Shown: positions 5,272 through 20,160 of the stretch, piece after piece
How positions within the stretch are numbered: position 1 is the first letter of the stretch
Layout of the letters: the number at the start of each line of letters is the position of its first letter
Source: Thiotrichaceae bacterium
GTDB lineage: Bacteria > Pseudomonadota > Gammaproteobacteria > Thiotrichales > Thiotrichaceae
Assembly: GCA_027083815.1 (NCBI GenBank)
Contig: JALWMR010000169.1
Span: 6,539 to 39,117 of the forward strand
Direction of reading: 5' to 3'
DNA: 32,579 nt
Notes under the pieces: generated by a model
Told to the model about the DNA's origin: nothing
What the model saw: only the letters and a program-made list of their open reading frames with translations
Databases searched by the model: none
Made by a program: the position numbers and the translations under genes

Positions 5272-6309
5272 ATGCGATTTTTTCTTAAAGTACTTTTTCC
5301 ACTTATACTGATTTTTTCGGCAGCTGCAGGGTATTATGCCTACCAGCAGTTCTCTGCCTTTAAACTATCAACGGTAAAACAGGATAATCAGGTTTTTGAA
5401 ATAGCAAAAGGCAGCACCATTGGATCTGTTTCGAAACAACTTGCCCAAAAAAATATTATATCTTCCCCGCTTTATTTTAAATGGTTAGCCAAGCTCAATA
5501 AGCAGGCGAGTAAGATAAAAGCAGGGGAATATCAAATCAAAAAAGGCATGACACCCGATGATTTGCTATCTTTATTTGTTAAGGGTGCTACATTACAATA
5601 TCAAACAAGGCTACCGGAGGGTAAAACTTTTAATGAGCTTGTTTCGATCATACAATCCGATAAGCATTTAAAACAAACGCTCTCTGACGAAGACTATAAT
5701 CACATCATGCAGAAGTTAGATACAGATTATAGTCAATATAAACCTGAAGGGTGGTTTTTTCCTGATACCTACAGTTATCCACGGAATACGACGGATTTGC
5801 AATTTTTACAACGCGCTCACAATGCCATGGTAAAAAAATTAAAAGCAGGCTGGGCAGAGCGCGAACCATTTAAAGGCATTGATTCGCTTTACGATGCGCT
5901 TATATTAGCATCAATCATCGAGAAAGAAACGGGTGACCCACGTGATCGAAAGAAAGTAGCACGCGTTTTTATTAACCGCCTTGAAAAAAATATGCTGTTG
6001 CAAACCGATCCAACCGTTATCTATGGAATGGGCAAAGCTTATAAAGGCAATATCCGTAAAAAAGATTTAAAAAAGGATACGCCATTCAATACCTATACCC
6101 GAAAAGGCTTGCCACCAACACCTATTACAACACCAAGTGCCGCATCCATTGATGCTGTTTTTCATCCGGATAATGATAATAAAATACTCTATTTTGTTGC
6201 TAAAGGTGATGGTTTATCTCATTTTTCCGAGAATTATAAAGCTCACAAAAAAGCGGTTGTTAAATACCTGTTGAACGGCGATAGCAGTCGTTATCAGGGT
6301 GATAAATGA
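5272..6309 (+). CDS. mltG: Endolytic murein transglycosylase (YceG family)
   Basis: Inner-membrane enzyme that cleaves nascent glycan strands in the periplasm and is thought to set strand length. Residues 5-24 are a hydrophobic anchor. A LysM-like region follows (about 38-100), then the YceG catalytic domain with the Glu in SIIEKET at about 217, equal to E218 of E. coli. The LLQTDPTVIYG and GLPPTPITTPS motifs lie after it. Length is 345. The ATG lacks a clear ribosome binding site. Its TGA overlaps the tmk ATG by four bases, suggesting translational coupling. Confidence 0.95.
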   Translation: MRFFLKVLFPLILIFSAAAGYYAYQQFSAFKLSTVKQDNQVFEIAKGSTIGSVSKQLAQKNIISSPLYFKWLAKLNKQASKIKAGEYQIKKGMTPDDLLSLFVKGATLQYQTRLPEGKTFNELVSIIQSDKHLKQTLSDEDYNHIMQKLDTDYSQYKPEGWFFPDTYSYPRNTTDLQFLQRAHNAMVKKLKAGWAEREPFKGIDSLYDALILASIIEKETGDPRDRKKVARVFINRLEKNMLLQTDPTVIYGMGKAYKGNIRKKDLKKDTPFNTYTRKGLPPTPITTPSAASIDAVFHPDNDNKILYFVAKGDGLSHFSENYKAHKKAVVKYLLNGDSSRYQGDK

Positions 6310-6971
6310 GCAGCACGCTAGCCAGGAATAATAAAAGAGGACTTTTTATTACGGTTGAAGGTGTAGAAGGAGCTGGCAAAACAACCAATATCGAACTTAT
6401 TGCAGAAAAAATTAAAGTTGCAGGCCATAACTTGTTATTAACCAGAGAGCCGGGCGGAACTCAAACAGGTGAGGCGATCCGAGAAATACTAATTTCTAAA
6501 GAATTACCCGAAATGCATCCTGATACCGAGTTATTACTCATGTTTGCTGCAAGAGCCGAACATTTACATCGAAAAATAATACCTGCATTGGAACAGGGCA
6601 CCTGGGTATTATGCGATCGTTTTACCGATGCCAGTTATGCCTATCAAGGCGCCGGTCGAGGTCTCAATATTGAACACATAAGCCAATTGGAGGAGCTGGT
6701 TCAGGGTGATCTTAGACCTGACTATACGCTTCTATTTGATTTAGAGGCTGATATTGGTTTAGGCCGGGCCAAAAGCAGGGGAGAAACTGACCGCTTTGAA
6801 CAACAACATATCGATTTCTTTAACCGGGTGCGCAATCAATACTTAAAAATGGCCGAAGATGATAAACAACGCTATAGGCTTATCCATGCTCAATATGATC
6901 TTGCCCAAGTCAGAGCTCAGGTCTCTGATGTTATCGACAAAATTATTGCTCAACACATTCCCGGTCAATAA
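6306..6971 (+). CDS. tmk: Thymidylate kinase
   Basis: Phosphorylates dTMP to dTDP for DNA synthesis. The P-loop GVEGAGKTT is at residues 19-27. The substrate-binding DRF motif falls in CDRFTDASYAYQGAGRG, and the LID region in RGETDRFE. Length is 221, slightly longer than usual because of a short N-terminal extension (MSSTLARNNK) needed to reach the overlapping start. Overlaps mltG by four bases at the 5' end and holB by one base (TAATG) at the 3' end. Confidence 0.96.
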   Translation: MSSTLARNNKRGLFITVEGVEGAGKTTNIELIAEKIKVAGHNLLLTREPGGTQTGEAIREILISKELPEMHPDTELLLMFAARAEHLHRKIIPALEQGTWVLCDRFTDASYAYQGAGRGLNIEHISQLEELVQGDLRPDYTLLFDLEADIGLGRAKSRGETDRFEQQHIDFFNRVRNQYLKMAEDDKQRYRLIHAQYDLAQVRAQVSDVIDKIIAQHIPGQ

Positions 6972-7927
6972 TGATTTACTCATGGCATAAACCAGTTTGG
7001 GACCAATTCAGCAAAGCCAGACGGCAGGATCATCTGCCACATGCTTTATTACTTTCAGGTGAGGAGGGTATTGCTAAAGTTGAACTCGCAAATAATATGG
7101 TTAAATCCTTATTATGTACCGCCCCTGTGAGTAAGGATTTAATCAATTATATGCCCTGCGATTCATGTCAGGCGTGTAAAACCTATGAATCTGATGCAAA
7201 CCCTGACTACTTACATATTGATTTACTTGAATCAAAGCAACAAATTGGTATTGATCAGGTAAGGCTTATCGCAAATTTCTTAAATTACACCCGCAGTTTG
7301 AGTCAGCAACGGGTCGTATTATTGAATTCGGCAGATAGAATGAATGTTCACGCCGCAAATAGCCTGCTTAAATCTCTGGAAGAGCCGACACAGGATACGG
7401 TCATTATCCTTATTAGCTCCCGACCGGAAAGCTTATTGGCGACCATTAAAAGCCGTTGTCAGCTGTTACATATTCCCTTACCTACGAAGCAACAGGCCTT
7501 AGACTGGCTACAAAAACATAAACCAGAGCTTGAAAATCCGCATAAAACTTTGCAAATTGCACATGGTAAACCATTAATCGCTGCTGATATTGATAATGAA
7601 ATAATTAACAACTACGAAGAACTTGCTGGTGATATTTTGGACTGCTGTCTTGAAAAAAAATCAATTACCGAGCTGGCTAAAAAATGGGAAAAGGGTGATA
7701 TCAAACAACTACTCGATTGGCAGATCATCTGGTTGCAAAACTATTTAAAGAACGCGCCTAATATCAGTGACAAACATAAAAAAATAAAAGAAAAACTAAC
7801 AACATCCCAGAAATGGAGCCTGTATCAAGCATTAATTGAACAAAAAAAACTTGTCCATACGTCCGTAAATACTCTGATGTTTATAGAAAATATGTTACTT
7901 TTATGGTTAAAGGCTAGTCGATGCTAA
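6971..7927 (+). CDS. holB: DNA polymerase III subunit delta'
   Basis: Clamp-loader subunit that forms the DnaX complex with tau/gamma and delta. The 318-residue protein has an AAA+ fold without a functional Walker A (LSGEEGIAKVEL in its place), as expected for delta'. Cysteines 49, 63, 66 and 69 form the zinc module. SLLKSLEEP and the SRC motif (IKSRCQ) are conserved. The C-terminal part is Lys-rich and diverged. The start overlaps the tmk stop. Confidence 0.93.
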   Translation: MIYSWHKPVWDQFSKARRQDHLPHALLLSGEEGIAKVELANNMVKSLLCTAPVSKDLINYMPCDSCQACKTYESDANPDYLHIDLLESKQQIGIDQVRLIANFLNYTRSLSQQRVVLLNSADRMNVHAANSLLKSLEEPTQDTVIILISSRPESLLATIKSRCQLLHIPLPTKQQALDWLQKHKPELENPHKTLQIAHGKPLIAADIDNEIINNYEELAGDILDCCLEKKSITELAKKWEKGDIKQLLDWQIIWLQNYLKNAPNISDKHKKIKEKLTTSQKWSLYQALIEQKKLVHTSVNTLMFIENMLLLWLKASRC

Positions 7928-7962: not shown

Positions 7963-8355
7963 ATGAATACACAGCCAAACCAAAACCCCGCAGTAAAAAA
8001 AACAGATCAGCTACAGCAAAGGCAAAGACGTCTATTGAACCTCGTTTTAAAAGATGACGCTGCACTGCATTCAAGCTATATGCCATTTGTTCGAGGTGGT
8101 GCGATATTCGTTCCCACCAATAGTGAAAACTACACCTTTGGTGATGAAGTCGTAGTCACCATGCATCTACAATCCACCAATAAAAAACTGGCAATCCCAG
8201 GGGTTGTTGTATGGATTGCACCAGCAGGTTGTGAACGTGGGGAAGAGGGCCTGGGCATACAGTTCGCTGGCACAACAAAAGCAAAGGTAAAGCTCATCAT
8301 TGAAACTATGCTGGGCAATAGAGCGAATATACCGCCACTGGTTCGATTCTATTAA
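7963..8355 (+). CDS. pilZ: PilZ domain protein (type IV pilus PilZ type)
   Basis: A 130-residue protein with a PilZ-type beta-barrel: YMPFVRGGAIFVPT near residue 40, VVVWIAPAG and GLGIQF near the end. It occupies the holB-pilZ-tatD position of Pseudomonas and relatives, where PilZ supports type IV pilus assembly. The usual c-di-GMP-binding RxxxR before the barrel is not seen, which fits the PilZ subtype that does not bind the nucleotide. The ATG at 7963 lies behind an AT-rich stretch with no clear ribosome binding site. Confidence 0.88.
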   Translation: MNTQPNQNPAVKKTDQLQQRQRRLLNLVLKDDAALHSSYMPFVRGGAIFVPTNSENYTFGDEVVVTMHLQSTNKKLAIPGVVVWIAPAGCERGEEGLGIQFAGTTKAKVKLIIETMLGNRANIPPLVRFY

Positions 8356-8437
8356 TAGTGAATTTTTGTAGTAAAGATAATTGCACAGATTGACCAATAA
8401 GCCATATACTGCGTTTTTTATTTATTCGCTTTCTAAT

Positions 8438-9214
8438 ATGCTTACTGATTCACATTGTCATCTGGATAAAATTGATTTAGAACCCTTTAATAATGACTTT
8501 TCTGCCATGTTAAAAGCGGCGGAAGATTTTGATGTAAGCCAATTTTTATGTGTTTGCATTGACACCGAGCATTTTAAGCAAGTATTAGAACCGGCGTTAA
8601 ACTACCCGAACATCTACTGTTCGGTAGGTGTACATCCAACCCATAAAGATTCGCATGCTCCCAGTGTCGATGAATTAGTTAGATTAGCGAATCATGAAAA
8701 AGTTATTGCCATTGGAGAAACTGGGCTAGACTATTTTCGATGTGACGATCAGGATATGAGCTGGCAACATGAGTTGTTTCGTACCCATATTCGTGCCGCC
8801 ATAGAAACACAAAAACCGTTAATCATTCATACACGCTCAGCCAAAGAAGACACATTAAGAATCCTTAAAGAAGAAGGCGCTGAACAGGTCGGTGGTGTAA
8901 TGCATTGTTTTGCAGAAGACTGGGAAACAGCACAGCAAGCCATGAAACTTAATTTTTACATTTCATTTTCAGGAATCGTTTCATTTAACTCGGCTAAAGA
9001 GTTACAGGAAGTAGCAAAACAAGTACCAGAAGATAAATTTCTTATCGAAACCGACTCACCATGGTTGGCACCAGTACCAAAACGTGGGAAACCAAATCAA
9101 CCGGCCTATGTAAAATATGTTGCAGAAAAAATGGCAGACTTACGAGATTGCAGTTATCAACACATTGCAAAAACTTCAACAAACAACTTTAATCGCTTGT
9201 TTAAACGGGTGTAA
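8438..9214 (+). CDS. tatD: TatD family metal-dependent hydrolase (DNase)
   Basis: A 258-residue TIM-barrel hydrolase of the TatD/YcfH type, implicated in DNA 3' end processing and quality control. Metal ligands are visible: HCHLD at residues 6-10, the Glu in GETGLDYF, His in IHTR and MHCF, and the Asp in IETDSPWLAP. The frame is open upstream to a TTG at 8381. The ATG at 8438 gives the standard N-terminus MLTDSHCHLD and is chosen. Last gene of the fab-to-tatD run. Confidence 0.94.
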   Translation: MLTDSHCHLDKIDLEPFNNDFSAMLKAAEDFDVSQFLCVCIDTEHFKQVLEPALNYPNIYCSVGVHPTHKDSHAPSVDELVRLANHEKVIAIGETGLDYFRCDDQDMSWQHELFRTHIRAAIETQKPLIIHTRSAKEDTLRILKEEGAEQVGGVMHCFAEDWETAQQAMKLNFYISFSGIVSFNSAKELQEVAKQVPEDKFLIETDSPWLAPVPKRGKPNQPAYVKYVAEKMADLRDCSYQHIAKTSTNNFNRLFKRV

Positions 9215-9535
9215 CTGCCCTGTTAGATATATACAAAGTGCGCATAATCTATATTATGTTAAATAGTATATTTCTTTAATATGACTACCATGTAGATTCC
9301 ACTTAGATAAAGCGAAAAGTACACCCCCCCACTTTTTTACGGTTTTCATCCGCCCTTCGAGTAGTTTTTTGCTTTCGCTCCAATATTCTCACGCTGTTTT
9401 TTAGCGACGTATGGTTTTTCAAGCCACAATACTTATTAACATAGTTAGCGCTGAATACTGAAAAAATAATAATACTATGCTAGCCTCCGGGTTATCACTT
9501 TCGTTTCACTACCATGACTACCGAATATTAATCTA
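9215..9535. other. 321-base gene-free spacer
   Basis: It holds the C-tract repeat copy 2 (9315 onward). The rest is AT-rich with no plausible coding frame and no convincing terminator behind tatD. Confidence 0.6.
9315..9395 (+). repeat. C-tract dispersed repeat, copy 2 (long, degenerate)
   Basis: The core GTACACCCCCCCACTTTTTT is followed by CGCCCTTCGAGTAG and CGCTCCAATATTCTC. The same order (CACCCTTCGGGTAG, then CGCTCCAACATTGTC) occurs in the right half of the element at 27421-27548 read on the minus strand. This copy therefore preserves more than the core and is a decayed relative of that element. It lies in the spacer before the lipoprotein gene. Confidence 0.75.
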
Positions 9536-9931
9536 ATGAAAAAACAACATCAGGGGCTTACAGCCCTACTCTTTATCTTTACTCTAAGTTTTCTAGTAGC
9601 TTGTTCACCACACCCTGGTGCTGGTGTATGGAAATCAAATGGAGTAAACAAGATGGGCATAAAGCGACTTGTTGTAGGCTTTGATGGTAAAGCAGAATTT
9701 GTTAGTAAACAATCAGGCAATGCAAACTGGCATTGTTTCTGGGGTAAATTAAGTGATAACAAACTCAGCCTGAGTTGCACCCCTTCAACCAGACCATCGC
9801 AGAAAAAATCATTTATTCTTGGCACCAGCGGCAAAGATAAAGCCGAGCTCTATGAAATTATGGATGATAAAAATAATACCCTTCTGGCTACTTTTATCAG
9901 GCTTGATGAAAATCCCTCGCCAGGAAAATGA
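9536..9931 (+). CDS. Small predicted lipoprotein, unknown function
   Basis: 131 residues with a lipoprotein signal: charged MKKQHQ, a hydrophobic stretch and a lipobox LVAC ending at Cys23. Ser follows the Cys, so outer-membrane sorting is expected. The mature part has a GVWKSNG start and short beta-strand-like segments with a WHCFWGKL motif, ending PSPGK. I do not recognise the family. It is convergent with pmbA with one base between the stops. Confidence 0.75.
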   Translation: MKKQHQGLTALLFIFTLSFLVACSPHPGAGVWKSNGVNKMGIKRLVVGFDGKAEFVSKQSGNANWHCFWGKLSDNKLSLSCTPSTRPSQKKSFILGTSGKDKAELYEIMDDKNNTLLATFIRLDENPSPGK

Positions 9932-9941
9932 GTTATTTTCC
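9923..9941. other. Hairpin across convergent stop codons
   Basis: A perfect 7-bp stem GGAAAAT/ATTTTCC with a 5-nt loop covers the stop codons of both the lipoprotein gene and pmbA. It may act as a weak bidirectional terminator, though no T run follows the stem. Confidence 0.4.
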
Positions 9942-11288
9942 GGCTATCATCATACCATCCACTAAAATTGAACCAGTGCGTGTTCCACTTCGCAAATCGA
10001 TATCATTGCCAACTGCAATAATATTCTGAAACATATCCTTTAGGTTACCAGCAACGGTTACTTCTTCAACAGGATATTGTATTACACCATTTTCTACCCA
10101 GAAACCGGCTGCACCACGCGAATAATCCCCCGTAATTGCATTAACGCCACTGCCAATTAATTCAGTGACAAAAAATCCAGTACCTAGTTCTTTTAGTAGC
10201 TCATTAAGACTTTGCCCGGTTGATTCTAGTGTTAGGTTGTGTGTGCCACCAGCATTGGCGGTTGTTTGTAAACCAAGCTGTCTAGCGGTGTAACTGCTTA
10301 ATATATACGATTGAACAACACCATCCGTTACAATATCGCGATCTTTGGTAGCCACGCCTTCTTTATCAAAACAAGAGCTACTAAAGCCGCCAGGCAAGTG
10401 AGGCTGTTCATGTAAGCGGATAAATTCGGGGAAGATTTTTTCGCCAACACTATCGAGTAAAAATGTTGATTTTCGGTATTGAGCACCACCACCAATGGCA
10501 CTGGTAAAGTGCCCTAGTAAACTGCGCGCCATTTCAGGTGAATACAGTACAGCAGATTCTCGCGTGTTTATTTGTTTTCCTCTGAGGCGCGCCAAAGTAC
10601 GCTCTGCCGCTTTTTCACCAACACGTTTAGGCGTCTCCAGTGCTTCATTTTTTCTTGCGGTGCTATACCAGTAATCGCGTTGCATATCGCTATCACCCTT
10701 CTCTTGTCCGATAACTGAGCAGCTTAAGGAGTGACGACTGGAAGGGATAATACCCATAAAGCCATGCGAATTAGCAATCAGACTGACACCACTGTAGGTG
10801 CTAATACTGGCACCATCCGAGTTAATAATACGTTTGTCATAGTCCCGAGCCGCTGTTTCACATTCTCGTGCAATATCAATAGCTTGCTCTGCTGCTAAAT
10901 CCCATGGGTGATATAAATCAAGGCTATCATTGTTTGCCTTTGTTTCAGCCATTAATTCCGCAGGTGCCAGCCCGGTAAATTCATCTTCGCCGGTGAATTT
11001 GGCAATATTACAGGCTGCTTTAACCGTGTCTTCAATGGCTTGAGGTGATAAATCACTGCTGGATGCCGAGCCGGTGTGCTGGCCCATATAAACGGTAAGA
11101 TTCAAACCTTGATCGCGGTGATATTCCAGTTTATCGACCTTGTCCATGTGAATTTCAACCGAAAGACCCGTGCCTCGGCTCATGCTTAATTCGGCATCAG
11201 TGGCACCGTGTTTTTTACTGGCTTCAAGAACCTGTTCTGCAATGGCTTGTAATGCTTGTTGCGTTTTATTTTTTGTTTCGATGTCCAT
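9933..11288 (-). CDS. pmbA: Metalloprotease accessory subunit TldE/PmbA
   Basis: Partner of TldD in a heterodimeric protease that degrades unfolded or tagged peptides, and in some bacteria matures peptide antibiotics such as microcin B17. The 451-residue protein shows TldE features: [22 protein letters not shown] near the start and [25 protein letters not shown] near the end. No HExxxH is seen, as expected for this subunit. The ATG at 11288 is chosen over a GTG at 11306 because GGAGG sits 6 bases before it. Only one base separates it from the tldD stop, so the two form an operon. Confidence 0.95.
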   Translation of the reverse strand: [451 protein letters not shown]

Positions 11289-17298: not shown

Positions 17299-18294
17299 CT
17301 ATGGTTTTCCTATTTTGACTTCAACTCTACGCGCCTCTTGAGGTGAGCCAGTACCGAGTGTTTCTCTTGGCTTCTCAAAGGTCATTTTTTCTTTTGGTAT
17401 ACCCGCTTCAATCAATAAACGGGCAACTTCCTGGGCACGTTTTTTGGACAGAGCAATGTTCGCTTCCTTATTGCCGCTTGCATCATGATAACCTGATATA
17501 ACGGCGACTGCGTCAGGATGAGAGCGCAAATAGGAGATAATACCCGCCAATGAAAGATTGGTATCAGCAGGAAATTCTGAGCTACCGACATCAAAATAGA
17601 GTTTTGCCATTTCAGGCAATGCCGGAGTTGGTGCTGTAGGATGATTCAATAACTGAACGGGTGCACTGGGTGCAGCTGGTGCTACGGGCTCTGCAGGAAC
17701 ACGAACAATCTTTTTTACCACTTTCTCTACTATTTTTATTTTTGGCTTGGCATTTTCAAGTGTTTTAATTTTATTTTGCAGGGCAGATATTTGTGTATTC
17801 TCCTGTTGTAGTTGTCCAATCTGTTGTTTCAGTTTGGCAATTTGTCCGTTTTCTTCTTCAAGCTTATTAATGGTTTCTTTGAGTACAACGATCTCGCTAT
17901 TCTCTTTCTCCAGTTGTTGTAATCGTCCTTTCAGGTCAGGAATCTTACCATTTTCAGCCTCAAGTATTTTCACTCTCTCGAGTAGCTTTGGGTTATCAAC
18001 GATTTTTGGGCCAGCACTTTCAAGCTCTTTTATTCGTGATTGTAAGCCTGCTATTGCTGCATTTTCTTTCTCAAGTGCTTGCAGGCGGTTCAATGTGGAC
18101 GGATTATCAACCAACTTTTCAACCTCAACCGTTTTTTCAACAACCTTGGGAGGAATTTCACATTGCTTTCCTCCGGGGCCATATCCAAGCAACCAAAGTA
18201 ATAGCAGCAGTAACAGCAATAGAATGGCAATGATGATCCATATACGTCTATATCCAGGCCAATTAGATGATATGACTGATTGTTTATTACTCAT
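17299..18294 (-). CDS. Membrane-anchored coiled-coil protein with C-terminal OmpA domain
   Basis: 331 residues. Residues 18-37 are one transmembrane segment (a run of leucines). VEK/VDNP motifs occur at 62-65 and 99-102, and a 17-residue repeat of the form LxxENxxIxxLxxxIxx starts at 74, 111, 128, 145 and 162. A Pro/Ala-rich linker (200-229) leads to an OmpA/MotB-type peptidoglycan-binding domain (about 230-330), with KLYFDVGSSEFP, SGYHDASG and the NIALSKKRAQEVARLL helix. The architecture fits an inner-membrane anchor reaching to the cell wall. The start overlaps the stop of the upstream HhH gene by four bases. The exact role is unknown. Confidence 0.88.
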   Translation of the reverse strand: MSNKQSVISSNWPGYRRIWIIIAILLLLLLLLLWLLGYGPGGKQCEIPPKVVEKTVEVEKLVDNPSTLNRLQALEKENAAIAGLQSRIKELESAGPKIVDNPKLLERVKILEAENGKIPDLKGRLQQLEKENSEIVVLKETINKLEEENGQIAKLKQQIGQLQQENTQISALQNKIKTLENAKPKIKIVEKVVKKIVRVPAEPVAPAAPSAPVQLLNHPTAPTPALPEMAKLYFDVGSSEFPADTNLSLAGIISYLRSHPDAVAVISGYHDASGNKEANIALSKKRAQEVARLLIEAGIPKEKMTFEKPRETLGTGSPQEARRVEVKIGKP

Positions 18295-19538
18295 GATTCA
18301 ACACCTCCATCTAATTTATCCTGCCAGGCTTTTAATTTATCCCACTTGTTTGATGCTGCCATTTCAGCCTGGGCTGGCCAGGTTCCCGGCTTGGCGAGTT
18401 TAAACCTCGGACCCGCATCATCGAGAATTTTCTGTATGTCATCTACATAGGTTTTCGCAAGCTGGGGGAAGGTATGAATACCGGCATTATGGAATAGCTC
18501 ATTAATTTTGGGGCCAATGCCTTCTATAAGGGTAAAGTCAACATGACCATCCTTGTTTACTTTAAGTTTAAACCCAGCTGCCTTTGCCGCTTCTAAATCA
18601 AGTGGCTTTTCTTTTTTTGTTGTAGCTTTAGCTTTGGTTTTGGATGTTTTTTGGCTGCTATTAGCGGAAGCAGAGGTATCAGGATACACACCGCCAATCA
18701 AAACATCCTGAAGTGCCTTTAAGGCAGGCCAACGGTTATTAGCTGCCAGGTTTGCCTGGTCTGGCCAAGTTCCGGGGTTTGCCATTTTAAAGGCAGGGCC
18801 AGCTTTATTTAATGTTTCTTTTAAGTTATCAGGTTGGGTATCCGCTAACAAACTAAAGGTATTGATGCCCTCTTTCTTGATTAAGTCACTAATTTTGGGG
18901 CCTATACCTTCAATTGAAGTTAGATCATGCTCATCTTTTATTTTAATGCCAGCAGCGCGGGCAGCTTCGAGATCTATTTTTGGCCCCTGTTTACAGGCTT
19001 CAAGGGCTTTTTCCAGAGCTTTTATTTTTTGATCTTTATCATCGTCTGAGCCAGAAGTGGTTGATGTAAGCGATTGAGAGTTCTTATTACTAGATGCTTT
19101 AAGTTTCTTCTCCAAATAGTGTATTTTACGATTTTCTTCTTCAAGCTTTTTTAGTTTGGCAAGTAACTCAGGATTATCTACATGAATAATTTTTTCTTTT
19201 ACCTGTGATTCCTGATTAGAAACTTGTGACATCAGAGGAGTCACCTGACTGTTTTCTTTATCCAAAGTGCTAGCATCTCTTCCGTTACCCGTTACGGATG
19301 ATTCCTCAAATGCTGCAATTTGAGCTATTAAGCTCGGTATTTGTTTGTTTTCTTTTTCAAGATCGCTTATAAGTGCTAAATGATCAGGATTATCGACAAT
19401 TTTCTCAACTTCCTTTTCGATAATTTTTTCCACAGGTGGTTCAGAATGTTTTAAACGGCGAGCTATCCAACCGGCTAACAACCACCCAATTAAACCACCT
19501 GCAAGATAAGGCCATAACTTGCACAAAAAAAGCGACAT
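18291..19538 (-). CDS. Membrane-anchored coiled-coil protein with two helix-hairpin-helix modules
   Basis: 415 residues. One transmembrane segment at 7-26 is followed by VEK-rich sequence and VDNP at 48-51 and 120-123. The 17-residue unit LxxENxxIxxLxxxIxx occurs at 60, 92 and 132. Two copies of a roughly 95-residue module follow, at 189-284 and 314-413. Each has LEAAxAAG, a helix-hairpin-helix core IEGIGPKI, then PGTWPxQA and WxxLKAxQD. A Lys/Thr-rich linker separates them. GIGPK hairpins are usually nucleic-acid-binding but also occur in protein-binding folds. AGGAG precedes the ATG. Coupled by ATGA to the OmpA-domain gene, with which it shares its N-terminal plan. Confidence 0.87.
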   Translation of the reverse strand: MSLFLCKLWPYLAGGLIGWLLAGWIARRLKHSEPPVEKIIEKEVEKIVDNPDHLALISDLEKENKQIPSLIAQIAAFEESSVTGNGRDASTLDKENSQVTPLMSQVSNQESQVKEKIIHVDNPELLAKLKKLEEENRKIHYLEKKLKASSNKNSQSLTSTTSGSDDDKDQKIKALEKALEACKQGPKIDLEAARAAGIKIKDEHDLTSIEGIGPKISDLIKKEGINTFSLLADTQPDNLKETLNKAGPAFKMANPGTWPDQANLAANNRWPALKALQDVLIGGVYPDTSASANSSQKTSKTKAKATTKKEKPLDLEAAKAAGFKLKVNKDGHVDFTLIEGIGPKINELFHNAGIHTFPQLAKTYVDDIQKILDDAGPRFKLAKPGTWPAQAEMAASNKWDKLKAWQDKLDGGVES

Positions 19539-19832: not shown

Positions 19833-20045
19833 TTAATCCGGACTACAGCAGGATGATCCAATAATCTGCGCCTGGGGACAGGGAAAATCGCCAAAGCAAC
19901 AATAAATGCAGCATTCACCACTTCTTGTGTTAATTTTTTCTTTGCAGGAAGGACAACGGTAGCTGTACTGGCTGGTATTCTCCGGCATTTCTTCTTCGTA
20001 TTTGAATCCACATTGCGGACAAGTCAGTATTGAACTTATGATCAT
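19833..20045 (-). CDS. GDCCVxC-type small cysteine-rich protein
   Basis: 70 residues starting MIISSILTCPQCGFKYEEEMPE. There is a CPQC pair, a CPSC pair and a C-terminal GECCIYCCFGDFPCPQ segment, the hallmark of the small GDCCVxC family, whose members may be selenoproteins. Here the relevant positions are Cys. The four CxxC-like clusters suggest metal binding; function is not established. The ATG at 20045 is chosen over one at 20117 because AGGAG lies 6 bases before it and it gives the family N-terminus. Downstream of ygiQ on the same strand by 115 bases. Confidence 0.8.
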   Translation of the reverse strand: MIISSILTCPQCGFKYEEEMPENTSQYSYRCPSCKEKINTRSGECCIYCCFGDFPCPQAQIIGSSCCSPD

Positions 20046-20160
20046 GGTAAACTCCTGCTCCGGTTGTTTCACCCACTTTATTACAGTTTTTAACAGCCCT
20101 TCGGTAATCGTCGCCATATTCCGACATTGTTTCGTTTCGCTCGGCTGACCTTTTCTCCAT

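Follow-up and report, generated by a model that had tools for sequence, protein, structure and literature searches.

A conserved pair of HhH and OmpA-domain genes in Thiotrichaceae that may encode a two-part trans-envelope anchor

In the Thiotrichaceae, a gene for a membrane protein with helix-hairpin-helix (HhH) modules is conserved beside a gene for an OmpA-domain protein, and this pairing occurs in two arrangements. The example analysed here lies in a stretch of 32,579 nucleotides (the window) from a draft genome of 2.78 Mb in 254 contigs. The pairs have in common their two domain types, a spacer in the OmpA protein that can be swapped, a conserved membrane helix in the HhH protein and, at some loci, a related helix that is encoded on its own. 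As to topology, contact within the membrane, ligand and tethering function, we infer that the two proteins would form a two-part trans-envelope anchor whose HhH modules would most likely bind DNA. We favour this proposal tentatively, giving it somewhat less than an even chance. A preliminary description of this DNA did not recognise the pair as a described system, and we likewise found no account of an HhH-OmpA pair in the papers searched. The FtsZl1/OmpA association (PMC2875224) was considered and is a different system.

Both genes are on the minus strand. The first (18291-19538) encodes a predicted membrane-anchored HhH protein of 415 residues, whose orthologues adjoin an OmpA gene in seven other genomes, and the second (17299-18294) encodes a predicted membrane-anchored OmpA-domain protein of 331 residues. 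The four-base overlap that had been noted between them proved to be ATGA (18291-18294, minus strand). In each protein, one hydrophobic helix lies at the N-terminal end, with a Kyte-Doolittle score that is very strong for the OmpA protein (3.4) and weak for the HhH protein (1.5), in keeping with the single membrane helix that the preliminary description had assigned to each; its placing of an OmpA domain in one protein and two HhH modules in the other agrees with both Pfam and NCBIfam. The transmembrane helix of the HhH protein (residues 8-28, LWPYLAGGLIGWLLAGWIARR; 19455-19517) shows a GxxxGxxx[AS] spacing of small residues. It is followed by a helical or coiled-coil stalk (residues ~35-183; 18990-19436), which contains VDNP at 48-51 and 120-123, and by two modules, one at residues ~203-283 (18690-18932; profile A1, 2.5e-36; pLDDT mostly 70-85) and the other at residues ~333-412 (18303-18542; profile A1, 1.1e-39; pLDDT mostly 60-81). 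Pfam recognises two HHH_5/DUF4332 stretches in this protein (2e-9). In the OmpA protein, the transmembrane helix (residues 15-38; 18181-18252) is preceded by positive charges and has a pLDDT of 88 in residues 21-30. A coiled-coil spacer (residues ~53-196; 17707-18138) carries VDNP at 62-65 and 99-102 together with 17-residue units, and the OmpA domain itself occupies residues 231-331 (17302-17604).

Based on its sequence, we assign this domain to the peptidoglycan-binding type and predict that it binds peptidoglycan. Pfam matches it at residues 233-306 (8e-14), and its score for PF00691 (52.2 bits) is above the curated cut-off of 27.2. The best match to its fold is the OmpA-like domain of Acinetobacter baumannii OmpA (3td3, E 5e-8), with 3td4 also matched. 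D271 and R286, the Asp-Arg pair of the diaminopimelate site, lie in a GYHDASG...RA motif and are kept in all rows of the alignments. The protein is not an OmpA porin proper, as it has no N-terminal eight-strand beta-barrel, and one hydrophobic helix followed by the coil stands there instead.

The arrangement seen in the window, in which the HhH gene is directly followed by the OmpA gene, was found at eight complete loci in two genera, which bears out the earlier description of a gene pair with a peptidoglycan-type OmpA domain in one protein and HhH modules in the other. Seven of these loci (the window, G011, G004, G005, G001, G007 and G003) belong to one genus and the eighth (G013) to another, and the flanks of the latter look unlike those of the other loci in the stretch read. 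The genes are separated by at most 2 bases and overlap by at most 4, and the HhH proteins vary from 271 to 900 residues, with one to three modules. In a further genome, G008, both halves are present at contig ends. Upstream of the HhH gene, the window also contains a gene for a GDCCVxC-domain (seleno)protein (19833-20117, minus strand; NF041374, 1.4e-19), and in the genus of the window similar-looking short cysteine-rich frames stand upstream of the HhH gene at most of the window-type loci (L045-L048, L050 and L051).

In the second arrangement, the OmpA gene precedes the HhH gene, an order kept at every one of the 24 loci for which the contig includes the upstream side. These loci come from genera g1, g2, g4, g5, g7 and g8 of the family, including the genome of the window, and from G157, a member of another family. 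At one of them, L119, an antisense frame overlies the OmpA gene, and we counted the locus as paired. The second pair of the window genome is on L052, where an OmpA gene (6296-7909) is followed by an HhH gene with four modules (7998-9950). This genome has six OmpA genes, and two of its three membrane-HhH genes adjoin one. With six OmpA genes among ~2,600 genes in all (a number estimated from genome size), a given HhH gene would adjoin one by chance in about 1 case in 200. Membrane HhH proteins also occur without an OmpA neighbour (L055, L129, L141, L143, L144 and L151-L154), so the HhH half can apparently work alone. Some of these belong to a third class, with a short helix of the GAFILGILAGWLLEWLF type, one module and no OmpA neighbour (L055 3775-4578, L129 197-799, L143 3356-3919 and L151-L154). 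In G157, the OmpA protein (L136 3266-4666) has an extra initial helix, ALFIAFLLGYILRCIFCRRR, which resembles the helix of the HhH proteins; from its sequence, it looks as if an HhH-type helix had been fused to the OmpA half.

The repeats shared by the two proteins were the starting point of the preliminary description. All four VDNP sites are where it had placed them (62 and 99 in the OmpA protein, 48 and 120 in the HhH protein), and the spacing from VDNP to a following EN pair is indeed constant, fitting at four of four sites and at none in 5000 residue shuffles. However, the reported interval of 13 residues applies only when counted from the N of VDNP, and V to E is 15. The 17-residue units, LxxENxxIxxLxxxIxx, are likewise present, but strict counting gives four in the OmpA protein and one in the HhH protein; the five and three given earlier are reached only when at least one position is relaxed. 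The segments that follow the two membrane helices are 47% similar over ~60 residues (E = 0.001; z ~11 against shuffles). Moreover, the OmpA coil of the window is resembled by the HhH coil of every genome (z 11-22), including those in which the OmpA protein has Ig-like domains. Judged from these similarities, the likely origin of the OmpA coil is a copy taken from the adjoining HhH gene. VDNP can be read more simply as a helix-cap or spacer sequence common to neighbouring genes than as a pairing element.

The spacer of the OmpA protein is interchangeable, and consists of a coil, Ig-like domains or TSP3 repeats. A coil is present in five of the eight orthologous OmpA partners; in the other three (G005, G001 and G013), it is replaced by five, five and three Bact_surface_Ig-like domains, respectively, and VDNP is missing, whilst the HhH partner retains its coil. 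TSP3 repeats form the OmpA spacer in the second pair of the window genome. An unrooted tree of the HhH module and OmpA domain sets the Ig-type pairs apart from the coil-type pairs (support 94).

The charges that flank the membrane helices suggest that the two proteins face opposite ways. Each of the eight HhH proteins of the window type has positive charges after the helix (A[RK]RxKH-like) and a short N-flank that is neutral or acidic, a pattern that predicts an outer N terminus and an inner C terminus, although the charge bias is modest, the helix is weakly hydrophobic, and in most of these proteins there is a Lys within the hydrophobic stretch (Lys7). The C-flank is also the more positive one in every HhH protein of the second type. 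Based on this charge rule and on the company the module keeps elsewhere, we predict that the HhH coil and modules are cytoplasmic, on the side of the membrane opposite to the OmpA domain. In the window-type OmpA proteins, Arg or Lys precedes the helix, and this predicts an outer C terminus, as the Ig-like and OmpA domains require. The OmpA helices of the second type have positive charges on both sides, and their orientation is less clear.

The HhH helix is more than usually conserved for this protein: among the eight orthologues, mean identity is highest in residues 1-20 (0.91), compared with 0.7-0.8 in the last module and 0.2-0.7 in the stalk. Small residues at positions 14, 18 and 22, in the GxxxGxxx[AS] pattern, are found in all eight window-type HhH helices, and no conserved small-residue motif was seen in the OmpA transmembrane helix. 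A helix of the same kind is also encoded by itself. At every second-type locus with a gap of 150-208 nt between the OmpA and HhH genes (12 of 12), the gap holds an unannotated single-helix miniprotein of 41-50 residues, with an invariant A and an F.LG.L pattern, in genera g2, g4, g5 and g7. An example is MFEHAVTKTYEMKDASLELLIMLAGSFLLGCLFCWALGSRKRKRNLKEV (L126 3674-3823), and the others are at L119, L120, L121, L124, L125, L127, L128, L142, L147, L149 and L158. The miniprotein is absent from five second-type loci with gaps of 40-107 nt. That the helix is kept as a separate product suggests that the HhH-type helix is a docking element and not a mere anchor.

The HhH module is widespread in the family, being found in 45 of 46 good genomes, compared with 6 of 143 drawn from across the class, which was the widest rank that the whole-genome searches visibly covered. 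It occurs as a C-terminal tail of S2 (L053 1266-2435) and L21 (L054 2-775) in the genome of the window, of L19 in G101 and G165 (L135 4480-5136; L137), of the PHA synthase PhaC (L150 2773-5235) and cytochrome b (L148 3192-4679) in G007, and of a jacalin-domain, lectin-like protein in G157 (L155 1388-2095). It also matches the C-terminal domain of RC-LH1 protein-O and is matched in NuoE. In protein-O, the ends of the two helices come together at the cytoplasmic face, and the function of the module has been called obscure (PMC12079452). S2, L21, L19, PHA synthase and protein-O are all cytoplasmic settings of the module. Searches of phages gave no match to the feature, plasmids gave only the L21 tail of Riemerella, and viral contigs gave seven short partial matches.

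With regard to the ligand, the window HhH protein matches profiles of the EGIGPKI...TWPxQA...W..L...Q..L type (NF009040, 1e-11; the PhaH profile NF045508, 6.6e-10), and a paralogue matches the latter at 1.5e-21. It is not a PhaH phasin over its whole length, as it scores 39.5 bits against the NF045508 cut-off of 250 and its best stretch is the C-terminal half of the profile. A review attributes nonspecific DNA binding to the HhH domain of PhaH (PMC13052382), and by this homology DNA binding is the most likely role of the window modules. Many of the matches to the module are HhH of DNA polymerases, and there is also a weak similarity to SAM-domain profiles. The modules are mostly acidic, with a net charge of -8 to +1 by sequence count; those of the window, at -2 and -1, do not have the net positive charge that is usual in a nonspecific DNA-binding HhH. 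This neutral-to-acidic character speaks for docking to proteins as an alternative. A Foldseek search with the HhH model, which is poor outside the modules, returned nothing better than E 0.77.

In the anchor that we propose, the HhH protein would span the inner membrane, its N terminus facing outwards and its coil and modules lying in the cytoplasm. The OmpA protein would share this membrane and extend its spacer and OmpA domain into the periplasm, and the OmpA domain would there hold peptidoglycan. Contact between the two halves would be made by the transmembrane helices and not by the coils, and the HhH modules would most likely grip the nucleoid nonspecifically, as PhaH is reported to do, or else other bodies that carry the same HhH tag. 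A stricter version makes the pair a dedicated nucleoid-to-cell-wall tether, in which the modules hold the chromosome, the OmpA domain holds peptidoglycan, and the halves join in the membrane with the ~45-residue helper helix of some genera, HhH-tagged ribosomes and PHA granules perhaps being held too; this we consider unlikely. The same trans-envelope architecture with a different ligand would result if the modules were SAM-like protein docking tags, shared among membrane anchors, ribosomes, PHA granules and enzymes, with the OmpA protein fixing the anchor to the wall. Their acidity, their SAM-like profile similarity and their presence on S2, L21, L19, PhaC, cytochrome b, NuoE and protein-O all fit such tags, but the reported binding of DNA by PhaH through a related module (PMC13052382) and the many DNA polymerase matches do not, and we regard this reading as somewhat unlikely.

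Other explanations dispense with the proposed architecture. The preliminary description had the coils of both proteins zip together in one compartment, with the OmpA protein anchored to the wall and the HhH modules presented there. The strong juxtamembrane likeness and the coil in five of eight OmpA partners speak for this model; however, Ig-like domains in the remaining three and TSP3 repeats in the second pair of the window genome show pairs without an OmpA coil, the opposite charge bias at the two helices would put the HhH coil in the cytoplasm and the OmpA coil in the periplasm, and AlphaFold draws the HhH stalk not as a single long coil but as broken helices that start at VDNP, with pLDDT below ~55. 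Pairing through the coils is thus distinctly improbable. ComEA has one N-terminal helix and C-terminal HhH modules, a plan that the HhH protein shares, and a periplasmic OmpA partner would make sense if the HhH protein handled DNA outside the membrane and the OmpA protein clamped it to the cell wall. We find this very improbable, given that searches of Pfam and NCBIfam that admitted E values up to 1 gave no match to a ComEA-type HhH family, that the charges after the helix favour a cytoplasmic C terminus, and that the same module is found on ribosomal proteins and PHA synthase. Adjacency could also reflect co-expression only, of envelope proteins with separate functions in one operon, as the membrane HhH proteins that lack an OmpA neighbour would allow. 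Yet exactly the same two partners meet in opposite gene orders and in different neighbourhoods, and in the window their frames overlap, which makes mere co-expression improbable.

The proposed anchor has partial counterparts among known systems. PhaH, the HhH phasin of Caulobacter crescentus (NF045508), has the same kind of C-terminal HhH module and serves as a tether for a cytoplasmic body, by what is reported to be nonspecific binding to DNA (PMC13052382), but it is bound to granules, whereas in the window the modules follow a membrane helix and a stalk, and an OmpA protein is the partner. Protein-O of Dinoroseobacter shibae RC-LH1 (PDB 8YY9) and the C-terminal tail of NuoE place a related module on a membrane protein and on a subunit of a cytoplasmic complex, respectively; protein-O differs in having two membrane helices, in belonging to a photosynthetic complex and in having no reported OmpA partner. 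In fold and in its two conserved residues, Asp and Arg, the window OmpA protein agrees with OmpA/Pal/YiaD-type domains (PF00691). Unlike those proteins, it is apparently in the inner membrane, with one helix, a spacer that across pairs is coil, Ig-like or TSP3, and no beta-barrel. Inner-membrane OmpA proteins of the MotB/TssL type likewise begin with a membrane helix and have their OmpA domain in the periplasm, but the window protein scores far below their curated cut-offs and is partnered by an HhH protein instead of a stator or secretion subunit. ComEA, for all the likeness of its single helix and C-terminal HhH, differs in HhH family and in predicted orientation, being N-in and C-out, the opposite of what the charges favour for the window protein.

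The HhH module is of largely unexplained function, and is carried by ribosomal proteins, complex I, a photosynthetic complex and storage-granule proteins. Its recurrent pairing with a cell-wall-binding protein gives it a context that can be tested. If the DNA-binding reading is true, the pair would link chromosome to wall in a way for which we found no description in the papers searched. More generally, the pairing suggests that the fixing of cytoplasmic bodies to the envelope may be a family-wide trait.
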